Of a DNA stretch of 56,603 nucleotides, positions 1 through 22,818 are shown piece after piece. The notes under the pieces were generated by a model. It saw nothing but the letters and a program-made list of their open reading frames with translations, searched no databases and was not told where the DNA came from. Location of the stretch: positions 1 through 56,603 of the forward strand of contig CALGYB010000058.1 of the NCBI GenBank assembly GCA_937935075.1. Direction: 5' to 3'. How positions within the stretch are numbered: the stretch's first letter is position 1; each line of letters begins with the position of its first letter. This DNA is from an uncultured Roseiflexus sp. GTDB lineage: Bacteria; Chloroflexota; Chloroflexia; Chloroflexales; Roseiflexaceae. Both the position numbers and the translations under genes were made by a program.

Positions 1-29
1 TTTGGGCAAGCATCCACCTCGTATCAGTC

Positions 30-20925: not shown

Positions 20926-21091
20926 GGAGTGTACAGGAAGAGACCTGTCAGGTCGGCGGGGCAGGCGGCAGCGCGGGGACTGGTCCGGGCAGGTCGGCGG
21001 GACTGGCAGCGTAAGGGCAGGTCTGAGACCTGCCCCTTTGGCTGGGCAGGTCTCAGACCTGCCCCTTCGGTTCTCCGTTGCCGCTGCGCGG
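20926..21091. terminator. Palindrome-rich intergenic region between convergent genes
   Basis: Two perfect palindromes with arms GGGCAGGTCT and AGACCTGCCC lie at 21015-21035 and 21044-21064, each followed by a CCCCTT run. A shorter relative lies at 270-290. Between convergent MEMO and hpf they could end transcription on both strands, but no long U tract is present. Function is inferred from position. Confidence 0.4.
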
Positions 21092-21673
21092 TCAGCCGGT
21101 CACTTCCGGCACGATCAGCCCGTAGTTACCGTCCTGGCGGCGATAGAGCACGTTCAGTTTCCCGGTTTCGGCATCCTGGAAGATGAAGAAACTGTGTCCA
21201 AGGAGTTCCATCTGCTCGACTGCTTCATCACTGTACATCGGCTTGATCTGGAACTCCTTCGTGCGGACGATGTGTGGTCGTTGCTCTTCCTCGACGCTTT
21301 CGGCGGGAGCGGCGGCGGTCGGTTCCGGCAGCGCCTCGACAATTTGACCTCCCTGACGGCGCAGCCGTCCACGCCGCCAGTGCTTATCCTTGTAACGCTC
21401 GATCTGGCGTTGGAGCGTGTCGTACACTTCATCGATCGCCGCATACAATTCCGGCGCGCGTCGCTCGGCGCGCACCAGAACCCCATGATCGCCGATAACC
21501 GTCACCTGCACGCGGTGGACATTCCCCTCGTTGCGCCGCATCTCTTCCATATGCTCGACCGTCACTTTGTCAATGCGATCGAGGTACCGATCAAGGCGCG
21601 AGAGTTTTTGCTCAATGTGCTGGCGCTGGCGATCCGAGAGTTTGCCATTGCGGCTGTTTACGATCAGGTTCAT
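21092..21673 (-). CDS. hpf: Ribosome hibernation promoting factor, long form
   Basis: This protein dimerises and silences 70S ribosomes in stress or stationary phase. The 193 residues have the N-terminal S30AE fold (MNLIVNSRNGKLSDRQRQHIEQKL, beta-alpha-beta-beta-beta-alpha) and a C-terminal dimerisation domain with IVRTKEFQIKPMYSDEAVEQMELLGHSFFIFQDAETGKLNVLYRR. This is the long HPF arrangement seen in most non-enteric bacteria. AGGAGG lies 5 bp before ATG 21673; in-frame codons upstream are not needed. A leader with its own promoter and an intervening terminator hairpin suggests control after initiation. Confidence 0.95.
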   Translation of the reverse strand: MNLIVNSRNGKLSDRQRQHIEQKLSRLDRYLDRIDKVTVEHMEEMRRNEGNVHRVQVTVIGDHGVLVRAERRAPELYAAIDEVYDTLQRQIERYKDKHWRRGRLRRQGGQIVEALPEPTAAAPAESVEEEQRPHIVRTKEFQIKPMYSDEAVEQMELLGHSFFIFQDAETGKLNVLYRRQDGNYGLIVPEVTG

Positions 21674-21755
21674 ACTGACCTCCTGCATCACTGCCCGTAC
21701 CTGTGACAGGTGGACGACAACGGTTGATGCGCAGCATCATTGCTGCGAAGGATGC

Positions 21756-21791
21756 AAAAAGCCCCCAACCGCCGTCAGGCGGGTGAGGGCT
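21756..21791 (-). terminator. Intrinsic terminator / candidate attenuator in the hpf leader
   Basis: On the minus strand AGCCCTCACCCGCC pairs with GGCGGTTGGGGGCT around a TGAC loop (14 positions, one G-U and one mismatch), followed by TTTT. It lies between the hpf promoter (21935-21963) and the hpf start (21673), so RNA polymerase must read through it to express hpf. It could be an attenuator or the end of a separate ~140-nt small RNA. Confidence 0.6.
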
Positions 21792-21934
21792 TCGTTTGTC
21801 GTCAACGAACAACAACAGCGGTATTCGCGTCTCCGTAACCGTGCGGGCCGCAAACGGTATGAACCACGTTTGTCGTCCTTTCCAGGCTACGAATGATGAT
21901 TCAGAGGCTTAACATCTTCGTATACTGTTGTTTC

Positions 21935-21963
21935 ATTGTACTACGTGAACTGATGCAGTGCAA
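21935..21963 (-). promoter_or_regulatory. Sigma-70-type promoter for the hpf leader
   Basis: On the minus strand -35 TTGCAC is followed after 17 bp by -10 TACAAT. Transcription would begin near 21928, giving a leader of about 255 nt before hpf. The upstream SDR gene ends at 21997, so the promoter falls cleanly in the gap. Confidence 0.65.
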
Positions 21964-21996
21964 GAGGGAAGTGTTAAGAATCGCTAACCCTTGGTC

Positions 21997-22818
21997 TTAT
22001 CGTCCCATCGCACGCCGCATGATGTTCCAGTACGAAACGGGCGCCAGGCGCACGAGCAGGTCGAGCATATGCGCGTCGCGCCCGACCAGAATGCGCGCTT
22101 TGCGCTGCTCGACCCCTTTGACGATGGTTTCGCCGGCGACTTCGGGAGGCAGTTTCAGCAATCGGCGTGATCGCGCCAATCCCTGTTCGATCGCTTCACG
22201 GGGCACTGCCGCTGGCCGACGTGCTCGCTCGGAAATGGCTGTGGCCACGCCGCCGGGAAAAACGACCGTCACGCCAATCGACGTGGGTTCGAGTTCGTGC
22301 CGGAGCGCCTCGGAGAATCCGCGCACTGCAAATTTGCTGGCGACGTATGCCGCCTGCCCCGATGGCGCCACAAGCCCGAAGACACTCGAGATGTTCACCA
22401 GACGCGCATCATCGCTCGCTTTCAACAGTGGCAGGAATGCGCGCGTCATGCGAACGAGACCATAGAAGTTGATGTTGAACAGCCATTCAAAGTCGGTGTC
22501 GCTGACCTGATCGAAGGCGCCCCACATCGCTACGCCGGCATTGTTGACCAGCAGATCGACGCCGTTGTGCACGCGATGCACAGCGTCCGGCAAGGCGGCA
22601 ACCTCTTCTGCGTCGCCAACGTCGAGGCGATGACAACTGACGCGTATTCCGTGCGACGCGATCATGGCTGCTGTGTGCGCCATGCCCGCTTCGTCGATGT
22701 CCGCCAGCGCAAGGTGACAGCGGCGGCGCGCCAGTGACATGGCAATTGCCCGACCAATGCCGCTCGCCGCACCGGTGACGACTGCCGTCCGGTTTGCCAG
22801 TTGCATCCGCCGTGTCAC
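21997..22818 (-). CDS. Short-chain dehydrogenase/reductase
   Basis: This 273-residue classical SDR oxidoreductase has the NAD(P) motif TGAASGIGRAIA, the structural motif NNAGVAMWG, catalytic Ser in NISSVFG and catalytic Tyr/Lys in YVASKFAVRGF. GTG at 22818 is favoured because GAGGAG lies 7 bp upstream, overlapping the end of the monooxygenase gene; ATG 22806 is an alternative. The stop of the monooxygenase overlaps this start by one base, so the two are co-translated. The pair could act on the same carbonyl or alcohol substrate, but this is not shown by sequence. Confidence 0.9.
   Translation of the reverse strand: MTRRMQLANRTAVVTGAASGIGRAIAMSLARRRCHLALADIDEAGMAHTAAMIASHGIRVSCHRLDVGDAEEVAALPDAVHRVHNGVDLLVNNAGVAMWGAFDQVSDTDFEWLFNINFYGLVRMTRAFLPLLKASDDARLVNISSVFGLVAPSGQAAYVASKFAVRGFSEALRHELEPTSIGVTVVFPGGVATAISERARRPAAVPREAIEQGLARSRRLLKLPPEVAGETIVKGVEQRKARILVGRDAHMLDLLVRLAPVSYWNIMRRAMGR

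Follow-up and report, generated by a model that had tools for sequence, protein, structure and literature searches.

What controls the production of a ribosome hibernation factor? Outside a few models this is poorly understood, and the locus described here raises the question in a specific form, with a long leader that appears to contain a terminator. The gene is hpf, encoding a long ribosome hibernation promoting factor (HPF; Pfam PF02482 and PF16321). It lies at 21092–21673 of the window (the whole stretch of Roseiflexus DNA analysed, 56,603 nucleotides), with its ATG at 21673 and a ribosome-binding site, AGGAGG, at 21684–21679. The gene and all leader elements are on the minus strand, and a short-chain dehydrogenase gene lies upstream, ending at 21997, ahead of the promoter. 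A first-pass annotation of the sequence had read the leader as an attenuator that senses translation or a metabolite, or alternatively as a small RNA ending ahead of hpf.

The promoter it proposed, TTGCAC-17-TACAAT (21935–21963, minus strand; -35 at 21963–21958, a 17-nt spacer, -10 at 21940–21935), is borne out by the relatives. As a single sequence it scores poorly (8/12) and is not listed by a simple scan. In most relatives it is kept as TTG(C/A)nn-17-TA(C/G)AAT, and the pattern TTGnnn-N17-TAnnAT is found upstream of the leader in 51/55 curated leaders. Transcription would start near 21928, giving a leader of about 255 nt, as the annotation had estimated. It had also placed a GC-rich hairpin with a T run ~85 nt ahead of hpf, and this intrinsic terminator-like structure is indeed there (21756–21792, minus strand): the hairpin AAGCCCTCACCCGCC-TGAC-GGCGGTTGGGGGCTT spans 21792–21759, followed by the T run to 21756, all about 82–85 nt upstream of the hpf ATG, and it folds with -25.3 kcal/mol (shuffle z -5.3). 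A separate promoter between hairpin and gene, which had been named as evidence that would speak against attenuation, was looked for as TTGnnn-16..18-TAnnAT and found in 0/55 leaders; in the window, the spacer (21674–21755, minus strand) likewise contains no promoter-like site. It is therefore most likely, judging by these leaders, that transcription of hpf depends on readthrough of the hairpin. A terminated RNA is then expected as the attenuated product. Its predicted length is about 170 nt, not the ~140 nt of the small RNA suggested earlier.

The hpf upstream regions were gathered from 68 genomes of the order Chloroflexales, and a hairpin at the matching position is present in 59 of them: the 55 that were curated in detail, plus four Herpetosiphon regions near-identical to curated ones. 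It is absent in genera g3 and g8 and in genome G079. (The name Roseiflexus is given in the record; the labels Chloroflexus and Herpetosiphon were assigned to relatives by gene similarity.) The genomes sampled outside Chloroflexales lack the arrangement, with the exception of one other Chloroflexota order that has a different geometry. Here, three genomes (G161, G266 and G267; loci L148, L147 and L145) have a promoter, a small ORF and a hairpin before hpf, the hairpin being CUCUGCUG....CAGGAGAG-U6 (also given as CTCTGCTG....CAGGAGAGTTTTTT). It sits within or at the start of the small ORF, which has a Shine-Dalgarno sequence in at least G161 and G266. These leaders would follow the same principle in another geometry, with the ribosome sitting on the terminator.

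The main part of the element had been overlooked, namely a small ORF inside the leader. In the window it runs from GTG to TGA over 21 codons (21802–21867, minus strand; MVHTVCGPHGYGDANTAVVVR), with a Shine-Dalgarno sequence AAGGA at 21876–21880 (minus strand), 8 nt ahead of the GTG and invariant in all Roseiflexus and in G009; the stem of the hairpin begins 9 nt after its stop codon. Throughout Roseiflexus, AAGGA and GTG open an ORF of 20–22 codons whose stop lies 6–9 nt ahead of the stem. In Chloroflexus there are 14–15 codons and a stop 2 nt ahead of the stem, and in genus g17 there are 14 codons and a stop 6–8 nt ahead. In order to avoid the bias of hand-picking, all 55 leaders were scanned for a Shine-Dalgarno sequence, ATG or GTG, at least 11 sense codons, and a stop between -3 and +13 nt from the stem, the start codons and Shine-Dalgarno criteria being assumed. 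Such an ORF is found in 36/55 leaders, compared with 2.0 expected from dinucleotide shuffles; shifting the anchor by 20–120 nt leaves 0–7, and the opposite strand gives 0. Since leaders from the same genus cannot be treated as independent, the count by genus (14/27 positive) is the fairer figure. In several other genomes the ORF enters or crosses the hairpin (three of g12, g14, g10, G062, G066 and Herpetosiphon), and translation running through the stem would also interfere with it. In G067 and G068 the hairpin is kept and the small ORF is apparently lost.

The peptide itself does not appear to be what is conserved. Indels in the Roseiflexus ORFs are multiples of 3, and counting variable columns by codon position (first, second, third) gives 8, 6 and 9 of 21 in Roseiflexus, and 11, 11 and 9 of 15 in Chloroflexus. 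In neither genus is there an excess at third positions, and the peptides are divergent. This flat variability means that the peptide is without detectable selection and that conservation falls on the frame, the length class and the position of the stop, a pattern that argues against a specific amino-acid sensor. A conserved leader peptide acting as the sensor was rejected for the same reason, as the codon positions vary equally. The V-C residues of the Roseiflexaceae ORF coincide with the hairpin 3' strand CGUUUGC.

The start of the small ORF is also structured. RNAalifold predicts, in three clades, a hairpin around its Shine-Dalgarno sequence and start codon, followed by the terminator. In the window this initiation hairpin is UCGUAGCC...GGUUACGG (21832–21893, minus strand), with a fold of its own of -22.9 kcal/mol and a z of only -2.0. 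It is near-invariant in Roseiflexus, making covariation uninformative in that genus. The covariation analysis that the annotation had called for could be done in Chloroflexaceae: among 13 sequences, compensatory changes occur in 14/32 pairs of the equivalent structure, 91.7% of cells pair (36–47% when the structure is slid), and 0/500 shuffles reach the observed covariation; both the initiation and the terminator hairpin covary. Covariance models built for the clades give one strong match per genome, ahead of hpf, and no convincing further genomic copies. The Chloroflexaceae model also recovers hpf leaders outside its training set (G077, G081, G080, G076 and G009). A search of Rfam 15, also suggested at the outset, gave no gathering-level match in the window and, for the leader and 20 relatives, only sub-threshold, chance-like matches; the covarying RNA element is new to Rfam. 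The initiation hairpin may control ribosome loading or serve as a pause hairpin, both of which are speculation.

That this leader is an attenuator of some kind is well supported by the comparison of genomes, with promoter, leader and hairpin conserved across the order and no second promoter. Of the two signals first suggested for it, translation gains support from the conserved ORF ending at the terminator, and a metabolite gains none. Our preferred explanation, which we consider probable but far from secure, is that translation of the ORF gates transcription of hpf by letting the polymerase through, a logic like that of pyrBI with a generic ORF. The sequences show that both hairpins, the promoter, the leader ORF and the place of its stop are conserved; from this layout we infer that the hairpin really terminates, that ribosomes drive readthrough, the sign of this effect, and the physiological signal. 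RNA polymerase would start at the conserved promoter, make a hairpin carrying the ribosome-binding site of the 12–22 codon ORF, and soon meet the intrinsic terminator. Unless a ribosome has loaded and come to the end of the ORF early enough, the terminator would fold and the RNA of about 170 nt would be released. A ribosome at the stop codon would cover the foot of the terminator stem and so allow the polymerase to continue into hpf; in some relatives, the ribosome would instead translate on through the hairpin. The peptide would be irrelevant, and the quantity read would be ribosome loading and arrival relative to the speed of the polymerase. The signal would most likely be a rise in idle ribosomes and/or a slowing of the polymerase upon a nutrient or energy downshift, leading to induction of HPF. 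As a hypothesis, HPF would then take away free ribosomes and thereby shut the switch again.

Folding with a ribosome footprint (of assumed size) at the stop codon brings the pairing of the terminator base to ~0 in Chloroflexus, G006, G064 and G061. In Roseiflexus it goes from 0.90 to 0.78, and with the 9-nt gap found there the ribosome at the stop barely reaches the stem under the assumed footprint. Earlier ribosome positions have no effect in most of the leaders tested, an exception being G031 from genus g12. In E. coli, moving a terminator to 5 bp past a stop codon reduces its efficiency from about 90% to under 10%, an effect caused by the ribosome, and maximal termination needs >27 nt beyond the stop codon (PMC4824070). 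Terminators less than 100 bp into a coding region still function well there, as the ribosome lags behind, unless the polymerase is held back (PMC4824070); a pause or a slow polymerase must therefore be assumed for the hpf leader. Taken together, the E. coli data, the closeness of the stop to the stem, and the lack of excess complementarity to the 5' arm favour termination by default and ribosome-dependent readthrough. Several points speak against the translation gate: the 9-nt gap in Roseiflexus, the need to assume a pause or a slow polymerase, the apparent loss of the ORF in G067 and G068, weak U tracts in many Chloroflexaceae, and the complementarity found in g12.

The E. coli pyrBI leader has a 44-codon ORF that runs through the terminator, with UTP-sensitive pauses, ahead of pyrimidine genes. 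The hpf leader as proposed here would have a ribosome-suppressed terminator in common with it, but its ORF has only 12–22 codons and mostly ends a little ahead of the stem, and hpf is the gene downstream. The growth-rate dependent ampC attenuator of E. coli reads ribosome supply, as ribosome loading on its leader counteracts a terminator. This interplay resembles what we propose for hpf, although the gene differs, and we know of no structured initiation hairpin in ampC. For pyrBI, a ribosome on the leader ORF suppresses the intrinsic terminator, and the progress of ribosome relative to polymerase is what is read (PMC4824070). The 312-nt 5' leader that controls an hpf homologue, lrtA of Synechocystis, is similarly long; this leader acts on transcript stability and translation, and is not reported to contain a uORF or a terminator (PMC4956104). 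The open-access literature searched yielded no earlier description of an attenuator or a leader ORF for hpf.

The opposite sign has to be considered as well. In an attenuator of the trp/whiB7 type, a ribosome stalled under starvation or antibiotics would allow an antiterminator to form, completed translation would lead to termination, and hpf would be induced by translation stress. This is physiologically attractive for a hibernation factor, and the whiB7/wblC uORFs of actinobacteria, which like the hpf leader have a uORF and then a Rho-independent terminator ahead of a stress-response gene, operate in this way, with an antiterminator and termination on completed translation, and respond to amino-acid starvation (PMC11550727). 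Also in its favour is genus g12 (G028, G031, G037, G055 and G059), where the last part of the ORF (GGAGCUUUG) looks like the 3' arm of the terminator and pairs with the 5' arm, with z of about -2 to -3 in three of the five genomes, so that it could form an antiterminator; in this genus the reading frame is broken between species and the RNA hairpin is kept. In the other clades no antiterminator is detectable, as upstream complementarity to the 5' arm of the terminator is at chance level (mean z 0.03, 45 leaders), and a general antiterminator was rejected on this basis. Regulatory codons or a peptide are not conserved, the stop lies 0–13 nt ahead of the stem with no room after it for an antiterminator segment, and some of the g12 ORFs cross the terminator. 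We consider a stalled-ribosome mechanism unlikely. The first-pass annotation had suggested an alternative pairing of its own, through a repeat in the leader. This repeat, GACGACAAACG, does exist (21877–21867 and 21803–21793). Of its two copies only the first, which forms the ribosome-binding and start region of the small ORF, is invariant among the relatives. Pairing mediated by the repeat was rejected, as the second copy lacks conservation and complementarity to the 5' arm of the terminator is at chance level.

Rather improbable, too, is that the hairpin is a constitutive partial terminator that simply fixes a low level of hpf relative to its promoter, with the ORF tuning the ratio and no regulatory signal involved. 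The weak U tracts of many Chloroflexaceae and the apparent ORF loss in G067 and G068 would fit this, but a covarying hairpin at the ribosome-binding site of the ORF and the strict placement of the stop suggest more than a fixed leak. Slightly less credible again is that the leader is mainly a trans-acting small RNA (about 170 nt) similar to raiA/ModT, with hpf as its readthrough product only. Its own promoter, structured body and terminator would suit such an RNA. The raiA motif RNA (ModT, RF03072), also a structured RNA with an intrinsic terminator, shares its name with raiA, a homologue of hpf, and its C. difficile version also exists in a longer form, made when transcription reads through to an intrinsic terminator further downstream (PMC11706538). 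However, raiA/ModT is known from Bacillota and Actinomycetota and differs from the hpf leader in sequence and structure. Its covariance model gave no hit above the cut-off in 13 genomes, none at the hpf locus and none in the leaders; membership of that family was rejected, and no other Rfam family matches. The element also occurs once per genome, only ahead of hpf, and holds an ORF that looks translated. A structured leader with a terminator would suit a metabolite-binding riboswitch with the hairpin as its expression platform, but this reading is very improbable: apart from the ORF start region, the clades have no invariant sequence in common that resembles a ligand pocket, and structures vary between clades while the geometry of ORF stop and terminator is kept.

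More tentatively, the leader might be a generic device that senses free ribosomes, or the coupling between polymerase and ribosome. Idle ribosomes would load the ORF and block the terminator, and the HPF made as a result would remove the same ribosomes, in a homeostatic loop conserved over the order and matched, in another order of the Chloroflexota, by a counterpart of different geometry whose ORF passes through the terminator. If ribosomes gate the transcription of their own silencing protein, the feedback would be unusually direct, and for the thermophilic phototrophs Roseiflexus and Chloroflexus the model makes predictions that are clear and cheap to test.

Some further features of these loci were observed. 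The stretch where ribosomes would bind for the small ORF (GGACGACAA, 21879–21871, minus strand) is complementary to TTGTCGTCC (21720–21712, minus strand) just ahead of hpf, and similar complementarity is present in most Roseiflexus and missing in G009; the readthrough RNA might thus mask the small ORF. An inverted GC-rich repeat, GGGCAGGTCTGAGACCTGCCCC, occurs twice at 21016–21072, in the interval that separates the hpf 3' end from the Memo-family gene, and yields spurious microRNA matches in Rfam. A tRNA gene stands immediately upstream of hpf, on its strand, in other orders of the class, as though the two were transcribed together (loci L105–L111, L115 and L117–L121, in G103, G104, G105, G107, G108, G109, G112, G121, G123, G125, G145 and G151), and these loci have no leader ORF or terminator. 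The tRNA reads like tRNA-Arg(CCU), with the anticodon judged by eye.
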